Source: Sphingomonas sp. CL5.1
Lineage (GTDB): Bacteria; Pseudomonadota; Alphaproteobacteria; Sphingomonadales; Sphingomonadaceae
Direction: 5' to 3'
NCBI RefSeq assembly: GCF_013344685.1
Contig: NZ_CP050137.1
Location: 4,271,001 to 4,335,000, forward strand
DNA: 64,000 nt
A program made the translations under genes and the position numbers. The stretch's first letter is position 1, and each line of letters starts with the position of its first letter. The notes beneath the pieces are model-generated. The model made no database searches. It saw nothing but the letters and a program-made list of their open reading frames with translations, and had not been told where the DNA came from. Below, piece after piece: positions 26,860 to 41,208 of this stretch.

Positions 26860-26939
26860 GACTCGCTCTCCTGTTTCGATTTGCAACCCTTGTACCGCCG
26901 ATCCGTTGCCATCGCCACCTTCCTCGCCGCACCCTCTTG

Positions 26940-26957
26940 TGTGGCAAAAATGCCACA
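26940..26957. promoter_or_regulatory. Operator-like palindrome between the aldolase gene and clpB
   Basis: Perfect dyad TGTGGCA-AAAA-TGCCACA in the 128-bp divergent interval, 31 bp before the clpB ATG. It has the form of a transcription-factor site. A CTTG box (26936-26939) just before it could belong to a heat-shock sigma factor promoter for clpB, but the -10 element is not convincing. Confidence 0.45.
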
Positions 26958-26987
26958 TTACATCCCTGCCATCTCAAGGGGAGCTGT

Positions 26988-29567
<2,580 letters not shown>

Positions 29568-29583: not shown

Positions 29584-29623
29584 GAGTCATGCGATCCTCG
29601 CTCGCCTCCGTCGCTCATGACTC
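29584..29623. repeat. Inverted repeat at the clpB / sulfotransferase junction
   Basis: GAGTCATG (29584-29591) and its reverse complement CATGACTC (29616-29623) flank 24 bases. A competing stem (CGAGGA/TCCTCG) overlaps it. It lies between two convergent stops. It may reduce read-through, but no T-run is present. Confidence 0.45.
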
Positions 29624-31496
29624 AAAGTGCGTAATGCATCCGCTCCGCCCAGCGAGCGAGAGTGGGGAGCGCCGGCTCCAGATACTTCTGATAATTGCGC
29701 CACCGCCCGATCGAGCGATCGTTGATAGGTTGCGTAACCTGCGCGTAGCTGGCGGTCGCTACGACGCGATTAGCCGCCGCGCCGGCGCGGTTGTCCAGTA
29801 CTGCAGGGTTCCATGCGATTTCCAGGAAATCGAGCAGCGATCGCATCTCCGCTTCCGGATTTGTCACCATTTGTTCGTAACGGATGCGATGCACGTTTAG
29901 CGGCAGCCGTTCCTCGGCAAGACTCCATGCATTGAACGACAGGTCAAAAAGGCGCGCGGCGCTTTCGATATGCTGGAAATGCACCATCGCCTTATTCGGC
30001 ACGAACCGCGCCATGAAGCAACTGAGCAAGCTGTCGCATGGGTGACGTTCGACAAAAACGAATTTCGCCGCCGGAAACAAGCGATGAATCAGCGGCACAC
30101 GGACCATATGCAGGGGATATTTGTCGACGACCGTTCGCTCGGCGATCTCCTCGCCGGCATGTCGGGTCAGATGATCGAAATAGGTGGCGCGCCCGTTCGC
30201 AATCCGCTCTTCGCTTAATGCGGCGGGATCGATCGATCCGAACGAGCGCTCCACCGCCTCCAGCATCGGCGGCTCCTCCAGAACCATGAGTTCAGAAAGA
30301 TTGCGCAGCATCGTATCCAGCAAGGTAGTGCCGGAACGGGGAAAGCCGATGATGAAAACTGGCGACGTCGTTGTCGGTATCGGCGAGACCGATGGTGATC
30401 GGACGGCCGGCTCATTACGCAATCGCGCTATCGTCGCAGTGATTTCGCCCGGAAAATTCATTGCCTGGGCCACCAATGCCGCCGGCTCAGCCGCTCCGAT
30501 TCGGTTCATTTCGGTAAAGGCGGCAAAAGCCTCGTCAAAATTTCCGAGCGCGTCGTTCAATTGCCCGCGCAATTCAGCGAAGCGCGCGGGGTTGATATCG
30601 TCCCCTGCCCCGGCAAGCGCCTCCAACGCTTCGACCGGTTTGCCGCGTCGCCGCATCAGCGTAGCCTCCACGAAGGCGATCGCTGCATCACTTAACCCGC
30701 GTCTACGCGCATCTGCAATCAGCTCTTCTAGGGCTTCGAGCCTGCTCATCCGATCGAGCAGCATGCCAAGCTCTCGCCAAGCCGGGGTATGATGCGGATC
30801 GATCCTCAGCGCGCTGCGATACGCCCGCTCCGCCGCGTCGAAATCATCCACCCCTCCCTCGGCCAGTCCTAGCTCGGTCAGAATCGAGATATCGCCCGGA
30901 AGCAGTGTTGCCGCACGGCGCATTACTTGCTGCCGCTCGCCATGACGTGCGGCGGCAGCAAGGGCTTGCGACAGACCGATATGAAATAAGGAATCGCGCG
31001 GACGCAATGCCACGGCGCGGGAAAAGGCTTCGATCGCCTCACCCAGCGCACCGGCATCGCGAGTCAAGAGACCGAGGTTGTTCCAGCTTTCATAGTCATC
31101 CGGCATTTCAGCCAGAACCGCACGAAAGCCGACAATTGCGGCATTGTGCCGCCCTTGCTGTTGATCGACATAAGCAACGATACGCCGCAGTTGCGCAGCC
31201 GGCGAATGCGAAGCCGCGCGGCGAGCGTCATCCAACCGCCCCGCTTCGATCAGTGCGAATGCAAGCTTGGTCAACAGCGCCGGATGCCCTGGCGCTGCGT
31301 CAAGCGCACGCTCGAGCTGAGGAATAGCCTCAGGCGCCCTGCCCAAAGCGAGCAAACTTTGCCCCCGCAGCGCCGCGAGGCGAGGATCAATCGAACCTGC
31401 GGCAACCCAACGAGCAACCTTCCCCTCCGCAGCCGCGGGATCGCCGCGCTGTAAATCCTCGAACGCGGCCGTCAGCGCAGCTTCCAGATCGGTCAT
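29622..31496 (-). CDS. TPR-repeat sulfotransferase
   Basis: 624-residue protein with an N-terminal TPR array (about residues 1-340) and a C-terminal sulfotransferase domain that would transfer sulfate from PAPS. The 5'-phosphosulfate loop is FIIGFPRSGTTLLD (about residue 382), and the 3'-phosphate site is FVERHPCDSLLSCF. The domain plan resembles bacterial TPR-sulfotransferases and, distantly, tyrosylprotein sulfotransferases. It lies downstream of the TonB-dependent receptor on the same strand with a terminator between, so it may be read at a lower level. Base composition is less GC-rich than the core genes. The acceptor is unknown; a protein or peptide is plausible because TPRs bind proteins. 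Confidence 0.9.
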   Translation of the reverse strand: MTDLEAALTAAFEDLQRGDPAAAEGKVARWVAAGSIDPRLAALRGQSLLALGRAPEAIPQLERALDAAPGHPALLTKLAFALIEAGRLDDARRAASHSPAAQLRRIVAYVDQQQGRHNAAIVGFRAVLAEMPDDYESWNNLGLLTRDAGALGEAIEAFSRAVALRPRDSLFHIGLSQALAAAARHGERQQVMRRAATLLPGDISILTELGLAEGGVDDFDAAERAYRSALRIDPHHTPAWRELGMLLDRMSRLEALEELIADARRRGLSDAAIAFVEATLMRRRGKPVEALEALAGAGDDINPARFAELRGQLNDALGNFDEAFAAFTEMNRIGAAEPAALVAQAMNFPGEITATIARLRNEPAVRSPSVSPIPTTTSPVFIIGFPRSGTTLLDTMLRNLSELMVLEEPPMLEAVERSFGSIDPAALSEERIANGRATYFDHLTRHAGEEIAERTVVDKYPLHMVRVPLIHRLFPAAKFVFVERHPCDSLLSCFMARFVPNKAMVHFQHIESAARLFDLSFNAWSLAEERLPLNVHRIRYEQMVTNPEAEMRSLLDFLEIAWNPAVLDNRAGAAANRVVATASYAQVTQPINDRSIGRWRNYQKYLEPALPTLARWAERMHYAL

Positions 31497-31541
31497 GATC
31501 CCAATCTAGGCGACCGCAAATGGATACGGAAGCATTTCATG

Positions 31542-31572
31542 AAAAAGGGCGACGCATTCGCTGCGCCGCCCC
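31542..31572 (-). terminator. Terminator/attenuator after the TonB-dependent receptor gene
   Basis: On the minus strand GGGCGGCGCA pairs with TGCGTCGCCC (one G.T pair, loop GCGAA) and is followed by TTTTTC. It lies 25 bp after the receptor stop and 46 bp before the sulfotransferase start. It would end most receptor transcripts and let a fraction read into the sulfotransferase gene. Confidence 0.85.
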
Positions 31573-31595
31573 ATTTCGTTAACAATCGCGTTCGA

Positions 31596-34574
31596 TCAGA
31601 ACTTCATCTTGGCGCTGACGAAGAACGACCGGCCGAGAACGTCATAGACAGTCGGGTAGGTGTTCGACTGCTCGCCGTTGCCGCCGTTCTGCGCCGAAGC
31701 AGCGAGCGGTGGCTTCTTGTTGAACAGGTTGCTGACGCCGAAGTTGAGCGAATAATGCTCGTTCACATCGGCCGAAAGCGTCAGGTCGAAGTAGTTGACG
31801 GCGCCGAGACGCTCCGAAGCGTAAACGTACGAGGGATCGTCGTCACGAACCGAACCGAAATAGCGCCACTGGACCGAGGTGCTGATCGCGCCAATGCCCA
31901 AGGTCGTACGCAGGCTGTGCCGCCACTTCGGCGTCGGGACACCGCAAGCCAACACACCGAAGCGACCAGCGCATTCAGTCGTCGTCGTCGGATCGCCCGA
32001 AATCTGCGTGATGATGTTATGGATCAGACGCGTGCCGTTAAAGTTGAAGCTCAGCCTGGCGTCACCGCCAAACAGTTCACCCAGCGGATAATTATAAGTC
32101 GCGCCGACATCGATACCCGAGTTCTTCAACCCGCCAGAGTTAACGTTCTGAGCGGAGAAGGTATCAATTTCACCAGCCGCGTTGCGCGTAATCAGCGAGC
32201 AGAATGACTGATTGAAGTTGATGAAGCACTCGTTGCCGATCGTGGTGGTTGTTACGGTGTGGATGAAATTGTCCACCTTGATGTTATAGTAGTCGACCGT
32301 CAGCGAAAGGCGCGGAACGAACGACGGCTGGATCACCGCACCGACCGTGTAGGTCTTGGCCGTCTCTTCACGCAGGTTCGGGTTGCCGCCGATGAAGGTC
32401 AGCGGGTTTACCACGTTCGGATCCTGGATCGCCGGATTGCCGATCAGGGAAACCGGCGCGCCGGCACCCGAGAACTGCGCAACGCAGATGTCATGCAACC
32501 TGCCCGCATTGACAGCAGCAGCGGTGCCACACTGATCCGCATTGCCCGCGAAGCTGACCGTGTTGCCGAGATACAGCTCGTTGACGCTCGGACCACGAAC
32601 CGCCTTCTGATACTGGCCGCGGAAGGTGATGTCCCGAACCGGAGCCATCTCCACGCCAGCAGACCAAGTGAACACGTTGCCCGGCGCATTGGAATAATGC
32701 GATGAACGAGCCGCGCCATTCAGCTCAAGGCGATGAATGATCTGGTCGTTAAGCAGCGGAACGCGAATTTCGCCGAAGAACTCCCGCACCGAATAGCTGC
32801 CGGAAGTCGGCTGCCCGGAGTTGAAGCCGGCCACGTTGCCGGAAGCGAGATAGGTGTCAGGAGTGACCGACCCCGCCTCGTTGCGCCACTCCGCACCGAA
32901 CGCCACACCAACGCCGCCTGCACCGAGATCAAACAGGTTCGGGTTGCTTACGACGAAGCTCGCGACCTGAGTGGTATACTCCTCAAGGTTCGTCGCACCG
33001 ACGGAGATGTACTTCGCCGCCTCCGGGCTGAGCTGGTTCAGGCCGAAGATGTTCGCAGGATAGCAACCCGCTGCGCGTGCCGTTGCGTCAGCGCAAACGA
33101 GCGTGCCGCCAGCAACCGGGAACGGAGAAATCGAGCCATCGGCGGCCTGGAACGCGGTCTTGGTCGCAGCAAGAAAATTGCTGATCGCGACGTTCCCGAG
33201 CTGGCGCTGCGAGTTCTTGGTACGGGCATACATATAATAGCCATCGTAACTGAAGCCCGCGCCGATATCGCCCTTCATGCCCGCGACGATGCGATAAGCA
33301 CTGCGATCGTCATAGTTCACACGGGGACCAATCTGGGTCGTGCGGAACGCCCAGCTCGGCACGCTGACATAGCCCGTGTTGCCGGTGTCGAGGGCCTGCA
33401 GCGCTGCCTGCATTGCTGGCGAGAAAAACGGCGAGTTCGTCTGCAAAGTCAGCGGCCCCGTGGTGCCGCTCGCATTGCTTGCATAGGGTGAACCCTGGCC
33501 AATCGGCGTCGCTGCGAGCTGCGACTCAACCCGGTTGTTGACGAACTGGGCTTCGAAATACGGCGTGAAATGCTCGTTGATCTCATACTGCCCCATCGCC
33601 GAAACGAGGAAGCGCTCCTGCGGAACCTGCAGGTAGTTGACCGGCGAGTAATTGTAGCCGTTCGCGCCGACGTAGCAGCGGCCGACGCCCGGGCTACCGA
33701 AATCTTGGTTGTCGCAGCCAAGGCCCGAGGTGATCCCGAGACCGGGCTTGATAACCGTCTTTCCATCAGCGGCGTAAACGGTGGGGATATTGATACGGCC
33801 CTGCGGCACGGACGGCGAACCGCCGGCGGCGACAAGGTGTCCCTTCCCATCGTCGACCAGCGCGTTATACGCGAAATCGCGCTGACCCGCATAGGTCGGG
33901 TTACGCTTCGTGTAATCGACGAACAGCGTGACGTTGCCGCGATTGTCATCGAAGTTCGAACCGATGGTGCCGTTGACGTTCCACATCTGGCCATCACCCT
34001 TTTCGGTGACGCCATACTGGCTGTTCAGCTCAACGCCCGAGAAATCGCGCTTGAGGATGAAGTTGACGACACCCGCGATCGCGTCCGAACCGTAAACCGC
34101 GGACTGGCCGCCAGTCACGACGTCGACGCGGCTGATCAGCGAGCTCGGAATGGTGTTGAGGTCGACGATCTGGTTGACGTCGTAAGACATGTAACGACGG
34201 CCATCGACCATCACCAGGGTGCGCTGCGAGCCGAGGCCACGCAGGTTGACCGTCGCAACGCCGCCGCCTGGGTTGTTCGAAGTCGACGAGGTAGTCGGCG
34301 TCACCTGCGGCAGGTCGTTCAGGACGTTTTCGATGTTGGCGCTGCCAGCACGCTTCGCGATGTCAGCCGAGCTGACGATCGAGATCGGGCTGGTGCCCTC
34401 AAGATCAGGGCGCGCGATGCGCGAGCCGGTCACAACGATGTCCTGCTGCGGAGCGGCATCGGAAGCGGAAGGCGCCTGTTGCGCGAAGGCCGGCGTGGAA
34501 ACCAGAGCCAAACCGATCGCCAGCGTAGCCGCACCGCAATAGAGCGCAGCTTCAGTTGAACGACGATTAATCAC
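31596..34574 (-). CDS. TonB-dependent outer-membrane receptor
   Basis: 22-stranded gated porin for uptake of a large ligand. It is 992 residues long with signal peptide (cleavage near LVSTPAFA-QQ) and a TonB-box-like DIVVTGSR. The plug domain has VNLRGLGSQRTLVMVDGRRY and SRVDVVTGGQSAVYGSDAIAGVVNF; a long barrel ends in an aromatic-type C-terminus (SFFVSAKMKF). Start: GTG at 34574 is chosen because AAGGGGA lies 7-8 bases before it; a TTG at 34580 is too close to that site. Sphingomonads hold many such receptors, usually for glycans, peptides or siderophores. The ligand is unknown. It has its own terminator and lies next to the oxygenase operon. Confidence 0.92.
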   Translation of the reverse strand: MINRRSTEAALYCGAATLAIGLALVSTPAFAQQAPSASDAAPQQDIVVTGSRIARPDLEGTSPISIVSSADIAKRAGSANIENVLNDLPQVTPTTSSTSNNPGGGVATVNLRGLGSQRTLVMVDGRRYMSYDVNQIVDLNTIPSSLISRVDVVTGGQSAVYGSDAIAGVVNFILKRDFSGVELNSQYGVTEKGDGQMWNVNGTIGSNFDDNRGNVTLFVDYTKRNPTYAGQRDFAYNALVDDGKGHLVAAGGSPSVPQGRINIPTVYAADGKTVIKPGLGITSGLGCDNQDFGSPGVGRCYVGANGYNYSPVNYLQVPQERFLVSAMGQYEINEHFTPYFEAQFVNNRVESQLAATPIGQGSPYASNASGTTGPLTLQTNSPFFSPAMQAALQALDTGNTGYVSVPSWAFRTTQIGPRVNYDDRSAYRIVAGMKGDIGAGFSYDGYYMYARTKNSQRQLGNVAISNFLAATKTAFQAADGSISPFPVAGGTLVCADATARAAGCYPANIFGLNQLSPEAAKYISVGATNLEEYTTQVASFVVSNPNLFDLGAGGVGVAFGAEWRNEAGSVTPDTYLASGNVAGFNSGQPTSGSYSVREFFGEIRVPLLNDQIIHRLELNGAARSSHYSNAPGNVFTWSAGVEMAPVRDITFRGQYQKAVRGPSVNELYLGNTVSFAGNADQCGTAAAVNAGRLHDICVAQFSGAGAPVSLIGNPAIQDPNVVNPLTFIGGNPNLREETAKTYTVGAVIQPSFVPRLSLTVDYYNIKVDNFIHTVTTTTIGNECFINFNQSFCSLITRNAAGEIDTFSAQNVNSGGLKNSGIDVGATYNYPLGELFGGDARLSFNFNGTRLIHNIITQISGDPTTTTECAGRFGVLACGVPTPKWRHSLRTTLGIGAISTSVQWRYFGSVRDDDPSYVYASERLGAVNYFDLTLSADVNEHYSLNFGVSNLFNKKPPLAASAQNGGNGEQSNTYPTVYDVLGRSFFVSAKMKF

Positions 34575-34848
34575 ATGCAATCCCCTTTACAGTGAGAGAC
34601 CCCCAACAATCGAACATGCGCTCTATTAAACTTGCCGCATTGCCCGATCACCACCTTGCGGTGGAGGAAGCCTCATTTGGATGGTCAATCTGTGCGTTCG
34701 GAGATTCATACTGTAAAGCGGGAACGACGTTTGCGAACGTAATCGACGACGATATGTCGCAATAGTGCAACACCTTTGCACAGCCGTCAGCTTGCCGCCT
34801 CGCGCCGCGGCGGTTAGGTTCGGTCATCAGATCAGGGCATAGCCGCAG
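34575..34848. other. Divergent promoter region of the receptor and the small exported protein
   Basis: 274 bp without a supported gene. It must carry the promoter of the receptor gene (minus) and of the gene starting at 34849 (plus). It is clearly AT-richer than the flanks. I looked for a short precursor-peptide frame that could be the substrate of the neighbouring oxygenases and sulfotransferase and found none with a ribosome site. Confidence 0.5.
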
Positions 34849-35364
34849 ATGAAAATTTCCCGTCTTTCTGCCGTCGTTATCGTCACGCTGGGCACGACCG
34901 GCATCGCCGCCGCCGGGCAGCGGCAGCAAGCGGGGATTTTTCGCGATCTGGTGGATTGCCGGGCAATCGCCGACGATAAGGCGCGGCTGGCATGCTATGA
35001 CGGCAAGGTTGCGGCAATCGCGCAGGCCGCGGACGCCGGGGACGTTGTCGTTGCGGACAAGACCCAGATCAAGGAAGCAAAGCGCGCGCTGTTCGGCTTC
35101 GGCAGTGTGCGATTGCCGCTCCTGGGCGGGAGCGACAAAAACGGCGACGCGCCGAGCGAGATCGACGCCAAGATCGTGCGCGTCCGGCAGATCGGCTATC
35201 AGAAATGGGAATTCGCGCTCGATAACGACATGACGTGGCGCCAGACCGACGATGAGGCGACTTACCCACGCGCTGGCGATACAGTGACGATCAAGCGCGC
35301 AGCGATGGGCAGTTACATGATGAAGGTCGGGCCCAAATTTATTCGCGTGATGCGTACGCAATAG
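34849..35364 (+). CDS. Exported protein of unknown function
   Basis: 171 residues with a signal peptide (MKISRLSAVVIVTLGTTGIAAAG). The mature N-terminus carries FRDLVDCRAIADDKARLACYD, in two adjacent parts that hold two cysteines 14 residues apart, a motif recurring in small exported proteins of sphingomonads. The C-terminal half is beta-rich (WEFALDNDMTWRQTDDEATY). Function not recognised. It is divergent from the receptor gene and converges with the TPR-hydroxylase gene (24 bp between stops), the only plus-strand gene inside this cluster. Confidence 0.8.
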   Translation: MKISRLSAVVIVTLGTTGIAAAGQRQQAGIFRDLVDCRAIADDKARLACYDGKVAAIAQAADAGDVVVADKTQIKEAKRALFGFGSVRLPLLGGSDKNGDAPSEIDAKIVRVRQIGYQKWEFALDNDMTWRQTDDEATYPRAGDTVTIKRAAMGSYMMKVGPKFIRVMRTQ

Positions 35365-35388
35365 TCGACCATATCATTCGCCCATCGA

Positions 35389-36672
35389 TCACGTCTTAAC
35401 TTCGCCCATACGCGCCAGTACTTGGTTCGTAGTGCGCAGCAAAGCTCTTTCCTCTTCGTCGAGGAACGGATTCCACACGTCGATAATCATGATTATGCGC
35501 GTGTCGTCGCTCTCATTCCATGCCTCATGCTCGATCGTATCGTCGAATGCCCACGCCTCTCCCTCGCGCCACTCGCGCGTCTCCGAACCAACGCGAAAGC
35601 CGCACCCCTGTGGAACGATCAGCGGCAGGTGCACCACAGCGCGGATATTGGTCACGCCGTGGTGCGGCGGTATCCGGGTGTGCGGCTTCAGCGTGGAGAA
35701 CATCACCGTCGGGCCGCGATGCGGGATATCTAGCAGCGGCAGGTCGGCAAGCGCGCTCGCCGTAACCGGGCAACGATCGAGCATATCGCGGATCGGCTCG
35801 CCATCCTTCAAAAGGAAAATCGCGCCCCAGTTCAGTGAGCGGTTCAGCGCGTGCCATTGGTTTTCCGGCGTGCCGGGGGCGATGTTGACATAAGGCACAT
35901 TTGGATCGGCACCTTGGAGAAGGCCGAGAAGTTCGCGCCGAATGTCGTCGGTCGCCTTTTCCAGCTTTTCGAACCAGGGAAATTGTGCGCGATCGAAGAA
36001 TTGCATCGCCGGCAGATAGGGAAAATGCAGACCAGCAGGTTTGGGATGGTAGATCTTACGCCGCCCCCCCAAAGCCTCCAGCGCATGTTCGAACCGTTGC
36101 GAGGCGATCGGGCGGTCGCCGATCTCCGCGCGGATCTCCCGCTCGATGCTCTGGTCTTCGCTGTCGACCAATGCCTTGCCGTGGCGTAAGGCATCGGCGA
36201 CGCGCGGTGGCAGCGTTTCGAAGGCCGGCGCCGCGTCGTTTAGCGCGCGATAGGCCAGAACAGCTTCGGCCTTGCGATCATGGCGCTCAAACCACTGGGC
36301 TTTTTCCAGCAGCGCGACCACGAAATAGGGATCGGCCACCAACGCCCGATCCAGCGCGGCAAGTTCGGCGGCGGAATCGCCCGTCGCCCGCGCCGCGAAC
36401 GCTAGGTTCAGCCAGATCGGGGGTGCCTGCGGGTCTTGCGCCACGGCCCGCTCGAACATGCGGCGCGCGCCCGCCGCATCACCACCCGAGAGAAGCCGAT
36501 TGCCGATCATATTCAGCGCGCGAGGATGTTCGGGCGCGATCGCCAATATCCCGCTGAGACAGGCGGTCACTTCCGCATCACGCCCCGCTCTCGCCGCATG
36601 TTCGACTTGCTCGAACAAACGCCCGATCCTGGCGGCGGCGGAACCATCGTTCACGGCCTGGACCTCAGCCAT
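35389..36672 (-). CDS. TPR-containing aspartyl/asparaginyl beta-hydroxylase family protein
   Basis: 427-residue protein with N-terminal TPRs (about residues 10-150) and a C-terminal Asp/Asn hydroxylase domain (Fe(II)/2-oxoglutarate). The first iron ligand is in the HTRIPPHHGVTN block (about residue 332), followed by VPQGCGFRVGSETREWREGE and the distal DDTIEHEAWNES (about residue 380). The 2OG-binding Arg would be in DTRIIMIIDVWNP. The start overlaps the preceding oxygenase gene by 22 bases. It is the last gene of the four-gene oxygenase operon. The domain plan (TPR plus AspH) suggests hydroxylation of a protein or peptide, but the substrate is unknown. Confidence 0.9.
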   Translation of the reverse strand: MAEVQAVNDGSAAARIGRLFEQVEHAARAGRDAEVTACLSGILAIAPEHPRALNMIGNRLLSGGDAAGARRMFERAVAQDPQAPPIWLNLAFAARATGDSAAELAALDRALVADPYFVVALLEKAQWFERHDRKAEAVLAYRALNDAAPAFETLPPRVADALRHGKALVDSEDQSIEREIRAEIGDRPIASQRFEHALEALGGRRKIYHPKPAGLHFPYLPAMQFFDRAQFPWFEKLEKATDDIRRELLGLLQGADPNVPYVNIAPGTPENQWHALNRSLNWGAIFLLKDGEPIRDMLDRCPVTASALADLPLLDIPHRGPTVMFSTLKPHTRIPPHHGVTNIRAVVHLPLIVPQGCGFRVGSETREWREGEAWAFDDTIEHEAWNESDDTRIIMIIDVWNPFLDEEERALLRTTNQVLARMGEVKT

Positions 36673-37385
36673 CCGGTGATCGAAACCCTCTTTTTTCCAG
36701 CCGCCGGACTTACTAGCGAAACGCTATGCGGCACAGGTACGGCGAATATATCCAGCACATTGAACTCCGGGGAAAGCGCACGGGCTTCGCCGCCGTCCGC
36801 GCCATGAAACAGCAGCAAACCACCCCATTCCAATCGCCAGAACGGCGTCAGCCCACAAACATAGGCTGCGTGGCGGCTCTTGCCTTCGACCAGATCGTCA
36901 TGGCCGGTAAGGAAGTCGCCACCCGAAAAGCGGGTGGCCTGAGCATCGGCGAAGTCAATTCGATCCTCGCCAGTGATCCTGCGAAGGAAATTTCGCGCTT
37001 CGCCTTGCGATAGCCACAGAGCGAAACGGTTCAACAGATCACCACATTCCGCACGCTCCGCTTCAGCGTCCGGCGTGCGGATCGTTTCATAGCGGAACTG
37101 GAAGCCATGCGTGGCGCCCGAATAGACCGCCGCGTCGAGCGCGGCCACGCGCTCCGCATCCATTTGCGCGCGGACATCGGCATCAAGCTCATAGACCTTA
37201 TCGCCGGCGTTCAGCACCTGGCGCCAATCTGTCCGACCATGTAAATGATCGGAAAGCGGAATGGGGTCGGCAAGAAAATTTCGAATCCGCACGCTTCCGC
37301 GCTCGCGATAACAACGCGCGAGCGCGGTAATATCGTGATTACCCAGCACGAAGTCCAGCGATGGGCCCTTCGCCTTCTCCGGCAT
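36651..37385 (-). CDS. Prolyl-4-hydroxylase-like 2OG-Fe(II) oxygenase
   Basis: 244 residues, double-stranded beta-helix oxygenase. The HxD motif is in FLTGHDDLVEG (about residue 161). The distal His is in VPHSVSLV (about residue 220), and the 2OG-binding Arg is in KKRVSITGW. The overall form (SGGDFLTGHDD...FRLEWGG-like WRLEWGGLLLFHG) matches the Tpa1/P4H-type family. Start: ATG at 37385 is two bases after the TGA of the previous gene, with GGGGAGCG upstream; the longer frame from 37481 would overlap that gene by 94 bases. The reaction is probably hydroxylation of a protein side chain; the target is unknown. Confidence 0.88.
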   Translation of the reverse strand: MPEKAKGPSLDFVLGNHDITALARCYRERGSVRIRNFLADPIPLSDHLHGRTDWRQVLNAGDKVYELDADVRAQMDAERVAALDAAVYSGATHGFQFRYETIRTPDAEAERAECGDLLNRFALWLSQGEARNFLRRITGEDRIDFADAQATRFSGGDFLTGHDDLVEGKSRHAAYVCGLTPFWRLEWGGLLLFHGADGGEARALSPEFNVLDIFAVPVPHSVSLVSPAAGKKRVSITGWLRSRP

Positions 37386-37387
37386 GC

Positions 37388-38029
37388 TCACGCGCTCCCC
37401 AGCGCCGCGATAAGCGAGATATCTATCAGCCGGCGAGGCCTCGTTCTCGCTCCCATCATTCTGTGACGTAGCTGCATCCACCCCGGGAACATCAATATGC
37501 TGCCGGAGCCGGGACGAACGGTAACTTCCGGAGAATAGAGCGCCGCCTGCGGCGCCAAAACGGTTTTGACACGCAACCCGGCCATCTCAATCATCGGCGC
37601 CGGGAGACGTGGGTCGAGAAAGACCAGTTCTCCGCCTAACGACTGCTCCGTTCTTCCGGCATAGCCGTCGTCTACAATATGCAGGCATCGCCAGAAAGCT
37701 TCGTAATCCGGCCGCAGATCGAGATGCTCGCCATGAGCAATCTCGTAGGCCGAACCTGTGATCCGCCAATCGACAGTCGCAGGATGCCCGTTTGCCCCGG
37801 CCGTTCCGCGATCGGCCAGCGCGCGAACATGGCTGGAGAGCACACGCAACGAAGCCGGCCACGCATCCCGCCAATCCACCTTTCGAGGACGACCCGTTCC
37901 GCGATCTACAGCAACACCTTCGAAAAGCAGCGCATCGAGCGTGGCGGCAATGCCCACGTCCTCCAATCGATCGATCACCAACGCCGTAGCGAAAAGCGGC
38001 TCGGCGTGAATCTGCATCATCGTCTCCAT
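37388..38029 (-). CDS. Putative 2OG-Fe(II) oxygenase (Oxy_5-like), paralogue of the next gene
   Basis: 213 residues. It shares the block VDDGYAG...LGGELVFLDPRLP with the upstream gene, so the two are related by duplication. The HxD motif is HLD (about residue 100); the distal His is in LRHRMM (about residue 189), followed by an Arg-rich stretch (RPRRLIDISLIA). Compared with its neighbour, the first iron ligand is HxD instead of HxH and the spacing to the shared block is 4 residues longer. Start: ATG at 38029 shares one base with the TAA of the upstream gene. The longer frame to 38155 is its shadow. Confidence 0.82.
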   Translation of the reverse strand: METMMQIHAEPLFATALVIDRLEDVGIAATLDALLFEGVAVDRGTGRPRKVDWRDAWPASLRVLSSHVRALADRGTAGANGHPATVDWRITGSAYEIAHGEHLDLRPDYEAFWRCLHIVDDGYAGRTEQSLGGELVFLDPRLPAPMIEMAGLRVKTVLAPQAALYSPEVTVRPGSGSILMFPGWMQLRHRMMGARTRPRRLIDISLIAALGSA

Positions 38030-38667
38030 TACTGCGTTCGCGCGATCATGTTGATCGCGATCGAGATGCGCGTTCCTGAGCCATGATAGGGGCGGACCGA
38101 ATGACCGAGAAATGAGGGAAACCCGATCAACAATCCGCTGAACGGCCTTACCCATGTCTCCTGTTCCTCGACATTGCCGCCGGCGACACGATGGCGAAGG
38201 CCCGGCGTCCGCATCCTCAGGAACGGCATGCGGGGATCGACGAACACCAATTCTCCACCCAGCGCGGGATCGGCCGATCCGGCATATCCATCGTCGACGT
38301 AATAGACGAACGAAAGATACGAGCCAGGGTGCCAGTGATTTTGATTCGAATCGCCCACACGATTGATATTAGCCCACATTTCCGGTCGCCATGCCACCGA
38401 CGGGGTTGATCCATCGGAGTTTGCCGTCAACCGACGACACGCCTCCGTCACGATTCGGGCGAGTGAGGCCGCCGCCTCGCCACCCCAGCGCAGCATGTCT
38501 ATTTCCGACTGCCAGCCGCCGACATTGGATCGGCTCACGCCGTTCTGCCCGGCGCTTCGCTGGACGATCGCCTCGCGCAATGACGCGCTCAACGCGCCGC
38601 TATTCGGCACCACGACAGTATAAACCGAGGTCGGAAATACAGAGGCTATGCGCACGCTCGGACCCAT
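38029..38667 (-). CDS. Putative 2OG-Fe(II) oxygenase (TIGR02466/Oxy_5 type)
   Basis: 212 residues. It begins with the family FPTSVY motif near the N-terminus and has NHWHPGSYLSFVYYVDDG (first iron ligands, about residue 108), the GGELVFVDPR block, the distal His in FLGHSVRPY and the 2OG Arg in TRISIAINM. The ATG at 38667 is close to an AAGG; a GTG at 38655 is a possible alternative. It is the first gene of the four-gene minus-strand oxygenase operon, the others being overlapping or 2 bases apart. Substrate unknown. Confidence 0.85.
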   Translation of the reverse strand: MGPSVRIASVFPTSVYTVVVPNSGALSASLREAIVQRSAGQNGVSRSNVGGWQSEIDMLRWGGEAAASLARIVTEACRRLTANSDGSTPSVAWRPEMWANINRVGDSNQNHWHPGSYLSFVYYVDDGYAGSADPALGGELVFVDPRMPFLRMRTPGLRHRVAGGNVEEQETWVRPFSGLLIGFPSFLGHSVRPYHGSGTRISIAINMIARTQ

Positions 38668-38731: not shown

Positions 38732-39634
38732 TTACCGCCCCATATTCCCCGCTACCCGCATCGGGTCGATCCTCTTCCCACGCCACATCATCGCCCAGTG
38801 GAGATGTGGCCCCGTCGCGCGCCCCGTCGCGCCGACGCGGCCGATCTCCTGGCCCTGGCGGACGTGATCGCCGACCTTCACCTCGATCCGCGACAGGTGC
38901 AGGAAGGCGCTGTTCAGCCCCATGCCGTGATCGAGCATCAGCAGATTGCCCTCCAGCGTGAAGGACGATGACGCGGCCAGGATCACCACGCCGTCCGCCG
39001 GGGCGACCACCGGCGCGCCGGCCGGCTTCGCCACATCGACGCCGCCGTGATAGGCACCCGGCTCGCCCCGATAGATGCGCTGCGCGCCGAACAGGCCGGA
39101 GATGCGGCCGCTCGCCGGCCAGATGAAGCGCTGACGCCAGCCGTCGGCGTCGGTGCGCATCGCGCGCGCGACCTTGATCTGTTCCAGTTCAGCGGGGCGG
39201 CGACGGGCGAATTCGGCGCTCGGCACGGGGACCTTGGCGACGGTGTCGAGCCGTTCGATCCGCCAATCGCCGGGCGCGATGTCGAACTCCCGCGTCGCAT
39301 GGCGGCCATCGGCGAGTGTCGCGACCAGCGTCGCGCGCGGGCCGGCGTCGCGGTCGAAGGCGATCAGGAAGCGACCGTCGCTCGCCACCTCGATCGGCAT
39401 CCCGTCGAGCGCCAGCGAAACAGTGCCGGACGGCGCGGTGCCGAGCATCAGCGCGCCTTGCCGCGGCGCACCTGAAAAGGCGCCGAAGGCCGCTGGCGGC
39501 AGCGGTCGCGGCGCAGGCGGCGGCGCGGGACGCGGAACAGGCATGGGCGGCGGCGCTTCGCTCGCCGGCGGCACGCAACCCGCCGCCAGCGTCGCGATCA
39601 GCGTGATCCCGGCCCACCGCCTCGCACGGCTCAT
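38732..39634 (-). CDS. M23 family metallopeptidase lipoprotein
   Basis: LytM-type endopeptidase or an inactive activator of cell-wall amidases in the periplasm. The protein has 300 residues with a lipobox (LAAGC, about residue 20), a Pro-rich linker, an Ig-like part and a C-terminal M23 domain. Metal ligands are seen in AYHGGVDVAKPAG (His and Asp) and GPHLHWAM (HxH), so the site looks complete and it is probably active. The ATG at 39634 overlaps the DUF2093 stop by 4 bases. The extension upstream to 39700 is out of context. Confidence 0.92.
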   Translation of the reverse strand: MSRARRWAGITLIATLAAGCVPPASEAPPPMPVPRPAPPPAPRPLPPAAFGAFSGAPRQGALMLGTAPSGTVSLALDGMPIEVASDGRFLIAFDRDAGPRATLVATLADGRHATREFDIAPGDWRIERLDTVAKVPVPSAEFARRRPAELEQIKVARAMRTDADGWRQRFIWPASGRISGLFGAQRIYRGEPGAYHGGVDVAKPAGAPVVAPADGVVILAASSSFTLEGNLLMLDHGMGLNSAFLHLSRIEVKVGDHVRQGQEIGRVGATGRATGPHLHWAMMWRGKRIDPMRVAGNMGR

Positions 39635-39831
39635 CGCGGCGAGAGCGCCTCGGTCGCCAGCGTCGCGGAGGCGAAGGCGCGCTGCCCCATCACGTCCCAA
39701 TAACGCAGGTCTTCCAGCGGGATGCGCGCGCCGGAAACCGCGCAGACGACATGATCGCCCGGCGTCAGCACGCGGAAGCCGTTGGCGAGATAATGCAGCC
39801 GCGCGGGCCGGTCGGTATTGGACATCAGCAT
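39631..39831 (-). CDS. DUF2093 family protein
   Basis: 66-residue conserved alphaproteobacterial protein with the hallmark block HYLANGFRVLTPGDHVVCAVSGARIPLEDLRYWDV. A single Cys and several Gly give it a compact appearance. Function unknown. It starts 12 bp after xseA and overlaps the M23 gene by 4 bases, so it belongs to the xseA operon. The ATG at 39831 and an in-frame ATG at 39825 are both possible starts. Confidence 0.88.
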   Translation of the reverse strand: MLMSNTDRPARLHYLANGFRVLTPGDHVVCAVSGARIPLEDLRYWDVMGQRAFASATLATEALSPR

Positions 39832-39843
39832 CGGATCACAAAC

Positions 39844-41208
39844 TCATAGAAGGGATGGCTGTTCGGGCGGAGGCGGAGCATAGGTCCGCTGCCGCGCGCC
39901 CTCAACCTTCGCGTCGACATTGCCGTCGTGGAAATGGAGCGTCACCGCCCCCGCCGCCCGCACGGCGGCGGCGGTGGTGAGGGTCGCGCCGGCGCGCGCG
40001 GTGACGCGGGCATAGCCGCGCTGCAACGGCGCATCCGGGTTCACCGCCGCCAGCAGCCGCCCGAAATCGGCGAGCCGCTGCCGCGCCGCCTCCAGCCGCC
40101 GGTCGAGCGTCGCGGGTCGCAGCGCGCCGGCAATACGGTCGAGCTGGCCGCGCGATTGCGTGACGCGGCGCTCCAGCGCGCGATCGGCGCGCTGGCCGGC
40201 GTCGTCGAGCCGCTGGCGCTGCGGGCCGAGCAGCCGATCGCGCGTCGGCAGCAGCCGCGCCTGCGCCTCCAGCCGCTCACGTCCGCGCTCGACATAGCGG
40301 CGCGCGCAGCGCTCGGCGCGCTGGGCGTGGGCGGCAACCGTAAGACGGATGTCGGCGAGCACCGGCACCGCCAGTTCGGCAGCGGCGGTGGGGGTCGGCG
40401 CGCGCAGGTCGGCGGCATGGTCGCAGAGCGTCGTGTCGGTCTCGTGTCCGACCGCCGAGATCGTCGGAATATCGGAGGCCGCGACGGCGCGCACCACCAC
40501 CTCCTCGTTGAACGCCCAGAGGTCCTCGATCGAACCGCCGCCGCGCGCGACGATGATAAGCTCGGGCCGCAATTCCTCCGCCAGCGCGTTGAAGCCGCGC
40601 ACCGCCGCCGCCACCTCGTTCGCCGCGCCGTCGCCCTGCACCTTCACCGGCCAGACGAGGACGTGGCTGGGGCAGCGGTCCTCCAGCCGGTGCAGGATAT
40701 CGCGGATCACCGCGCCGGTCGGCGAGGTGACGACGCCGATGCGGCGCGGCAGGAACGGCAGGCGGCGCTTGCGCTCCTGATCGAACAGCCCCTCCGCCGC
40801 CAGCGCGGCGCGGCGCTTCTCCAGCAGCGCCATCAGCGCGCCCGCGCCGGCCAGCTCCATCCGCTCGATGATGATCTGGTATTTGGAGCGGCCGGGATAG
40901 GTCGTCAGCCGCCCGGTGGCGATCACCTCGATGCCGTCCTCCGGGCGGAAGGCGAGGCCCGCCGCCTGCCCCTTCCAGATCACCCCGTCGATCACCGCCG
41001 CCTCGTCCTTGAGGCAGAGATAGGCGTGGCCGGAGGCGACGCGCTTGTAGCCGGAAATCTCGCCGCGCAGGCGGACATGGCCGAACTCGCCCTCCACCAC
41101 CCGCTTCAGCCGCTGGGAGAGCTCGCCGACGGAAAGCGCAGGCGCGTTGCTGCCGGGAGCGGCCTCGGCTACCAGCCGGCCCGGCGGATCAAGGAAGGGA
41201 TCGGACAT
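39844..41208 (-). CDS. xseA: Exodeoxyribonuclease VII large subunit
   Basis: Catalytic subunit of the single-strand-specific exonuclease that degrades long DNA to oligonucleotides in repair. The 454-residue protein has the OB-fold N-terminus ([28 protein letters not shown]), the catalytic block [19 protein letters not shown] and [38 protein letters not shown], and a long coiled-coil C-terminal half. The ATG at 41208 shares its first base with the TTG start of purD on the other strand. The small subunit xseB is not in the window. Confidence 0.96.

Follow-up and report, generated by a model that had tools for sequence, protein, structure and literature searches.

TonB-dependent receptors paired with a 2-oxoglutarate (2OG)-Fe(II) oxygenase are known from iron uptake (the PiuC/Fiu type). 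In other settings, protein side chains are modified by aspartyl/asparaginyl beta-hydroxylase (AspH), whose substrates are EGF domains, and by protein-tyrosine sulfotransferases such as human TPST1 and TPST2 and the bacterial RaxST. To our knowledge, protein hydroxylation and tyrosine-type sulfation have rarely been documented in bacteria, and a TonB receptor with enzymes dedicated to its modification is not known to us. The locus analyzed here, in Sphingomonas sp. CL5.1, holds a TonB-dependent receptor, a sulfotransferase fused to a tetratricopeptide repeat (TPR) array, four oxygenase-type genes (OXYA, OXYB, P4H, and TPR-AspH), and a small protein with a signal-peptide-like start (EXP). It lies between xseA with an M23 peptidase gene on one side and clpB on the other, within a stretch of 64,000 nt (NZ_CP050137.1, positions 4,271,001–4,335,000, forward strand). 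This whole stretch is called the window, and its genes were taken from six-frame reading and Pfam.

The locus resembles the PiuC/Fiu-type pair in placing a TonB receptor beside a 2OG oxygenase, but it has several oxygenases and a sulfotransferase, and its receptor falls under the cut-offs of siderophore, heme, and B12 receptor models. Capsule and O-antigen clusters are serotype-type exchangeable surface loci, and they are similar in having fixed flanks and a middle that is replaced between relatives; here, however, the middle holds a receptor and enzymes of protein-modifying types instead of polysaccharide synthesis genes. The catalytic domain of the sulfotransferase is homologous to TPST1 and TPST2 over most of its length and retains the P-loop and the aligned Glu, whereas the fusion to a long TPR array, the lack of a signal peptide by eye, and the linkage to a TonB receptor set it apart. 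The AspH protein has the PF05118 domain, the aligned His residues, and a TPR part in front, as AspH does, but it is bacterial and apparently cytoplasmic. O-GlcNAc transferase (OGT) combines TPR and catalytic domain in the same logic and has a TPR part near that of the window enzyme; its chemistry differs, and it serves as an analogy only. Finally, Table 2 of PMC10040529 lists, for two related genera, clusters numbered 1738–1748 with a lasso-peptide B2 protein, a nucleotidyltransferase, a sulfotransferase, an aspartyl beta-hydroxylase, a second sulfotransferase, PqqD, asparagine synthase, and a glycosyltransferase. The same pair of enzyme types thus appears in that table, but no precursor or maturation genes were recognised in our locus. 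No description of such a locus, or of a TonB receptor with dedicated modifying enzymes, was found in the open-licence PMC literature, which is weak evidence of novelty because the subscription literature lies mostly outside that scope.

The strongest result of the analysis was that the cassette is replaced between relatives at a fixed site, a feature missed by the sequence-only reading that had first described this DNA without database searches. Among 27 loci with xseA, clpB, and the receptor, the identities of xseA and clpB were correlated (Spearman 0.54), and those of the flanks and the receptor were not (−0.04, a value reached in 300 of 500 permutations). The same was observed within the genus (n = 12, with the window and genome G086 included), at 0.50 for xseA against clpB (0 of 1000 permutations) and −0.23 for flanks against receptor (919 of 1000). 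The genus sample comprised 19 of 40 xseA-bearing genomes and leaned to the more distant half, the 20 genomes closest to the window in xseA being outside it. These 19 further genomes included five without a receptor and without clpB nearby, four with a receptor and no recognised enzymes (one of them an incomplete stretch), and ten with a receptor and seven different enzyme sets.

The replacement was also visible at the DNA level. Four pairs of loci were compared on plus strands, and repeating three of these comparisons with both strands did not change the outcome. In the pair L240/L257 (L and G numbers are our own handles for loci and genomes), the flanking proteins were 94% identical, and the receptors were only 34–35%, the sulfotransferase domains 29%, and EXP 31% identical; the other enzymes differed. 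DNA homology, on both strands, stopped just before EXP, left one 224-base receptor piece, and resumed inside the clpB end at 88%, with no alignable enzyme DNA in common. L246/L248 showed the same pattern, with homology extending over the greater part of EXP and persisting in two pieces of the receptor; so did L242/L247, where three pieces persisted. The window and L004 had a common set at 74–78% DNA identity except for the sulfotransferase, which was present in the window only, and the cassettes that the window and L104 (G086, same genus) carry at this position differed strongly. The swapping presumably occurred by recombination in the flanks.

Conservation of the site was examined in two samples. 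In many of the 80 loci selected with a P4H profile, the order was purD-xseA-M23-[enzymes]-EXP-receptor-[enzymes]-clpB, with additional members in relatives, namely a TPR-Oxy5 protein, a methyltransferase, two further AspH-like families, one further sulfotransferase family, and a protein designated U10. The anchored sample was built on xseA in 99 Sphingomonadaceae genomes and gave 95 downstream stretches, with the window standing for G000. G025, G038, and G061 (xseA at a contig end) and L100, L145, L152, L161, L164, and L166 (incomplete) were left out, giving 90 loci including the window. The receptor family was present at 40 of these 90 loci, and hydroxylases and/or sulfotransferases at 28 of the 40. 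Both types were found in 19 of the 28 enzyme-bearing loci (U10 counted), hydroxylase types only in six, and sulfotransferase types only in three; enzyme sets in relatives ranged from 0 to 5, so the number of four, on which the sequence-only reading had placed weight, is not special. Where clpB was in reach of a receptor locus, enzymes occurred in 19 of 27.

Among the 50 loci scored without the receptor family, enzymes were present in one, L144, where two sulfotransferases lie beside a 1120-aa protein that was grouped with the L104 barrel by size and place. In another, L178, clpB is inverted, with genes for AspH, U10, and a receptor past it and outside the scoring rule; this is a rearranged version of the site. 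In G074, xseA and the cassette are apart, the latter being next to an end of clpB (L213 versus L099).

Linkage between receptor and sulfotransferase was also observed away from this site. The genome of the window contains 102 receptor-barrel matches (about 98 receptors) and five Sulfotransfer_3 genes; all four of TPR-type length, including that of the window, adjoin a receptor, and the fifth does not. In 12 other family genomes, hits were classed by domain length into 17 TPR-type (2 already in the site and 15 analyzed) and 20 non-TPR (17 regions), with weak partial hits left unclassed. Eleven of the 15 were directly beside a receptor with no called gene between, and L213 had only TPR-Oxy5 between; the unlinked ones were L199, L203 (receptor 4 kb off), and L208. 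None of the 17 non-TPR regions had a sulfotransferase adjoining a receptor, the nearest being L214 and L226 with one or two genes between. Receptor linkage was therefore 16/19 for TPR-sulfotransferases (12/15 in the other genomes; 15/19 if only direct neighbours are counted) versus 0/18 for non-TPR enzymes (Fisher 9e-8). Tandem, convergent, and divergent orientations all occurred, and thus the arrangement is not one inherited operon. The smallest recurring unit was a receptor with a TPR-sulfotransferase. In addition, receptor and P4H occurred together on five 20-kb stretches without xseA, M23, and clpB (L010, L040, L062, L071, and L083), with EXP in four and TPR-Oxy5 in three of them. Because L040 and L083 retain the peptidase-type gene that flanks clpB elsewhere, they may derive from the site by rearrangement.

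The TPR-sulfotransferase of the window (29622..31496, minus strand; Sulfotransfer_3, PF13469) has a catalytic domain closest to the human protein-tyrosine sulfotransferases TPST1/2 (E = 4e-12 to TPST1), with PRSGTT of the P-loop aligned. The P-loop is conserved, and Glu408, which aligns with what we take to be the TPST catalytic base, was present in 41 of 42 sequences. Among solved chains, the TPR part was closest to designed consensus TPRs and next to OGT. In the L141 cassette, a CysN-CysC-type protein of the kind that makes the sulfate donor 3'-phosphoadenosine 5'-phosphosulfate lies between the methyltransferase and the sulfotransferase. Its adenylyl-sulfate (APS) kinase domain scored 215 bits, above the NCBIfam adenylyl-sulfate kinase cut-off and below the full-fusion cut-off, and this predicted function directly supports real sulfation chemistry. 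U10, a recurring cassette member of about 340 aa in related loci, belongs to no Pfam family. In hhalign, it matched the sulfotransferase profile with a probability of 95.7% (E = 9e-9) and nine other profiles at 0.5% or less, and it is a putative divergent sulfotransferase.

Our preferred reading, with a probability of about 40%, is that the window carries one allele of a receptor cassette that is open to exchange, and that its enzymes, located in the cytoplasm, would hydroxylate and sulfate a receptor-associated protein, most likely the receptor itself. The exchangeable cassette itself is well supported, and the results suggest chemical tailoring and frequent replacement of the receptor system. 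The fixed site between xseA-M23 and clpB holds a TonB receptor, often EXP, and a variable set of protein-modifying-type enzymes drawn from TPR-AspH, P4H-like, and Oxy_5 hydroxylases and from TPR-TPST-like or divergent (U10) sulfotransferases. In the proposed scheme, the enzymes would act in the cytoplasm on unfolded polypeptide held by the TPR arrays, with hydroxylation followed by sulfation. The most economical substrate would be the receptor encoded alongside them (or EXP), prior to export, because the enzymes of the window belong to families that modify side chains of proteins or peptides and have no evident signal peptide (judged by eye), TPR arrays occur in three of the enzyme types, and the minimal unit is a receptor with a TPR-sulfotransferase. 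Such modification may tune the receptor surface, either for ligand choice or for defence against phages and bacteriocins.

A more far-reaching form of this idea, which we hold only tentatively and regard as somewhat improbable, is a serotype-like receptor locus. Every allele would combine one TonB receptor with hydroxylases and TPR-sulfotransferases of its own that act in the cytoplasm on the receptor chain (or EXP) prior to export, and swapping together with the chemical coat would change which ligands, phages, and bacteriocins can use the receptor. If modification of the receptor is correct, the cassette would be dedicated to hydroxylating and sulfating TonB receptors and would offer a function for the TPR-sulfotransferases of Sphingomonadaceae. 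It also provides a concrete place for study: the receptor comes with named candidate enzymes, alleles that have or lack individual enzymes occur in nature, and closely related strains differ by swapped alleles.

Several observations weigh against modification of the receptor by the cassette enzymes. Recognised enzymes were absent from 12 of the 40 receptor loci in the anchored sample. Of the 50 receptor-less loci there, 49 also had no clpB in reach, so the co-occurrence contrast at the site is confounded; the corresponding test (Fisher 8.5e-13) was not relied on, since 48 of the 49 loci without receptor and enzymes were also without clpB. No receptor longer than 850 aa was called in 34 of the 80 P4H-picked loci, several of which are short contigs and a few of which have shorter receptor pieces. 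Similarity of enzyme sets followed receptor similarity and flank similarity equally (0.26 and 0.26), and therefore we make no claim that enzyme sets are tied more closely to the receptor than to the species. Sulfotransferase-associated receptor columns showed no Tyr enrichment, in a comparison with a biased P4H column, P4H having been the basis on which the named loci were chosen. No difference in the density of acidic-Tyr sites was seen between receptors that adjoin a sulfotransferase (27) and those that do not (115; p = 0.74). Outside Sphingomonadaceae, only 2 of 21 related sulfotransferases adjoined a receptor plug, both in G180, and G276 had the enzyme and no plug match; this check covered 11 of 25 other genomes with hits, adjacency being judged by eye from coordinates and several hits lying near contig ends. 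U10 also gave no match to ST2, the other sulfotransferase family, which was one of the nine profiles mentioned above.

A link between TPR-sulfotransferases and receptors across Alphaproteobacteria was unsupported in the 11 genomes checked, and no receptor residue signature matching the enzymes emerged from the column or acidic-Tyr comparisons. Overall receptor Tyr content was slightly higher with an adjacent sulfotransferase (4.25% versus 3.82%, p = 0.016, uncorrected). The proposal of the sequence-only reading that the enzymes jointly hydroxylate and sulfate one protein or peptide is in agreement with the frequent pairing of both enzyme types and with CysN-CysC in L141, but neither a Tyr signature in the receptors nor a peptide precursor in the examined gaps of the window accompanied it.

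In the main rival explanation, the cassette enzymes would act on a ligand, a ribosomal or small peptide similar to a siderophore or to a ribosomally synthesised and post-translationally modified peptide (RiPP), that is secreted and retaken through the receptor, with swaps following ligand types. Tailoring of peptides by a hydroxylase and a sulfotransferase is chemically natural, a small exported CK..TGSR protein is encoded in the gaps of 18 related loci, and Table 2 of PMC10040529 numbers the clusters for both enzyme types close to that for the lasso-peptide protein, which presumably means neighbouring genes. On the other hand, the gaps of the window (at least 80 bases, outside genes) contained no open reading frame (ORF) conserved in other loci, except in the xseA-M23 gap, and Pfam scans (8, 10, and 8 proteins) detected no domain of peptide maturation, transport, or non-ribosomal peptide synthesis apart from a HlyD-type protein in L106. 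The smallest unit, a receptor with a sulfotransferase, also counts against this explanation, which we regard as doubtful. A RiPP cluster (for example, of lasso type) in the window was rejected, with no precursor in the gaps examined and no maturation domain in the cluster. It is unlikely, in our view, that the enzymes instead process a compound imported through the receptor for assimilation or detoxification, with cassettes differing according to nutrients. Receptors beside catabolic genes are a common theme, which counts for this possibility, and genes for M16, M28, and M19 peptidases and DUF885 proteins are present in or near several loci; however, the cassette of the window contains no recognised gene for a transporter or a hydrolase, and the TPR arrays on three enzyme types and the protein-tyrosine-like sulfotransferase fit a protein better than a nutrient.

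The site could also be a mere recombination hotspot that gathers receptor and enzyme genes with separate jobs, as the enzyme-free receptor loci would suggest. P4H-like genes also occur far from receptors, and few of the related sulfotransferases in other families adjoin a receptor. This explanation appears quite improbable, because TPR-sulfotransferases are receptor-linked elsewhere in all orientations and non-TPR enzymes are not, and because receptor and enzymes also occur together on stretches without xseA, M23, and clpB. The neighbourhood is conserved as a kind and not as a fixed gene set. The idea of one conserved system mostly withstood its test, with enzymes at 28 of the 40 receptor loci and TPR-sulfotransferases adjoining receptors across family genomes; some P4H-like genes, which have no receptor nearby, count against it.

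In the window, the exchanged segment is bounded by clpB (26937..29567, plus strand), where synteny is conserved and the homology of relatives resumes inside the 3' end, and on the other side by the M23 peptidase gene and xseA (38732..41208, minus strand). From xseA and M23, the order is OXYA, OXYB, P4H, and TPR-AspH on the minus strand, then EXP on the plus strand, and then the receptor and the sulfotransferase on the minus strand. OXYA-OXYB-P4H-AspH is probably one transcription unit, because the genes abut or overlap at all three junctions. The receptor and sulfotransferase form a second minus-strand unit, whose end is separated from that of the plus-strand clpB by about 55 bases. A single minus-strand operon had been described earlier, but the position of EXP on the plus strand splits it into two units. 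The genes that had been listed were all found by Pfam and six-frame reading, with corrections for the strand of EXP, the status of OXYB, and a gene set that is not fixed.

The lower G+C content of the cluster was also confirmed, with 0.596–0.626 for its genes versus 0.672 for clpB, 0.727 for M23, and 0.734 for xseA. Across 28 loci, the receptors at the site had a mean G+C content 7 points under that of xseA and clpB, and thus part of the dip is a general trait of such receptors and is weakened as proof of recent transfer. Mean deficits of the enzymes were 0 points for the methyltransferase, 2 for TPR-Oxy5 and AspH, 4 for the sulfotransferase and U10, and 7 for P4H; OXYA and OXYB, scored in the window only, were 10 points lower.

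The receptor (31596..34580, minus strand, 994 aa) matched the Plug domain PF07715 at 82.3 bits and the barrel domain PF00593 at 111.8 bits. Among solved chains it was closest to BtuB, in a match limited to residues 43–193. Its scores were under the cut-offs of the NCBIfam siderophore, heme, and B12 models (TIGR01783, 50.4 of 223.5; TIGR01779, 98.2 of 599.7; TIGR01785, 96.2 of 316.85). A PiuC-type iron-uptake pairing was rejected, the receptor being far under the siderophore and heme cut-offs. EXP (34849..35364, plus strand, 171 aa) was assigned no function in Pfam and NCBIfam scans; it was present in 24 of the 40 receptor-bearing versus 2 of the 50 other anchored loci. In L245, the receptor was called as two separate frames of 337 and 655 aa, no enzymes were recognised, and this locus is possibly a decayed allele. 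A second outer-membrane barrel type, with PF25183 and a carboxypeptidase-type regulatory domain, was found at the same site in L104 (L104:6998-10159), the only locus on which Pfam was run for this type; similar genes are present in L106, L110, L116, L144, L254, L255, L007, and L011. A sulfotransferase directly follows this barrel in L104, L110, L116, L144, L254, and L255, P4H directly follows it in L007 and L011, and neither follows it in L106.

Four oxygenase-type genes were found as previously described, but only three look active. OXYA (38029..38667, minus strand), the first gene of the upstream unit, matched 2OG-FeII_Oxy_5 (PF13759) at 66.3 bits against a cut-off of 27. It aligned with the solved homologue 2rg4 (E = 0.001), HxHP and a distal His being common to both, and these residues would bind iron, as judged from the family. 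Its divergent sister OXYB (37388..38029, minus strand) reached no Pfam or NCBIfam model in library scans. Both His residues of HxHP and the distal His were missing in 5 of 5 aligned copies, each adjoining an OXYA, and OXYB is probably a degenerate pseudo-oxygenase partner of OXYA that has lost the putative iron ligands. In the genus, OXYB had a strong match in 1 of 80 other genomes and a weak match in 7.

P4H (about 36651..37385, minus strand), a prolyl-hydroxylase-like 2OG-Fe(II) oxygenase (PF13661/PF13640), scored 67.9 bits against a cut-off of 27 and retains an intact HxD...H motif, with H163, D165, and H221 invariant in 23 aligned sequences; its closest solved chain was OGFOD1 (4nhx, E = 3e-5). 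TPR-AspH (35389..36672, minus strand) matched PF05118 at 142.3 bits and 5apa at E = 8.9e-24, with the His residues that align with human AspH retained. A second, stronger PF13759 gene lies at G000:C1:4337788-4338066, about 2.8 kb past the end of the window, with no receptor-barrel match within 30 kb.

Gap ORFs were surveyed in the P4H-picked and anchored loci. The small exported Cys-containing protein (CK..TGSR..CKT..W) occurs in cassette gaps of the 18 related loci (for example, L013, L045, L049, and L063) and not in the window; the group is single-linkage and uncurated. A conserved protein of about 70–80 aa (GDHVVCAVTG...LRYW) is encoded in the xseA-M23 gap of 25 loci, and ORFs in the xseA-M23 gap of the window itself match those of other loci.

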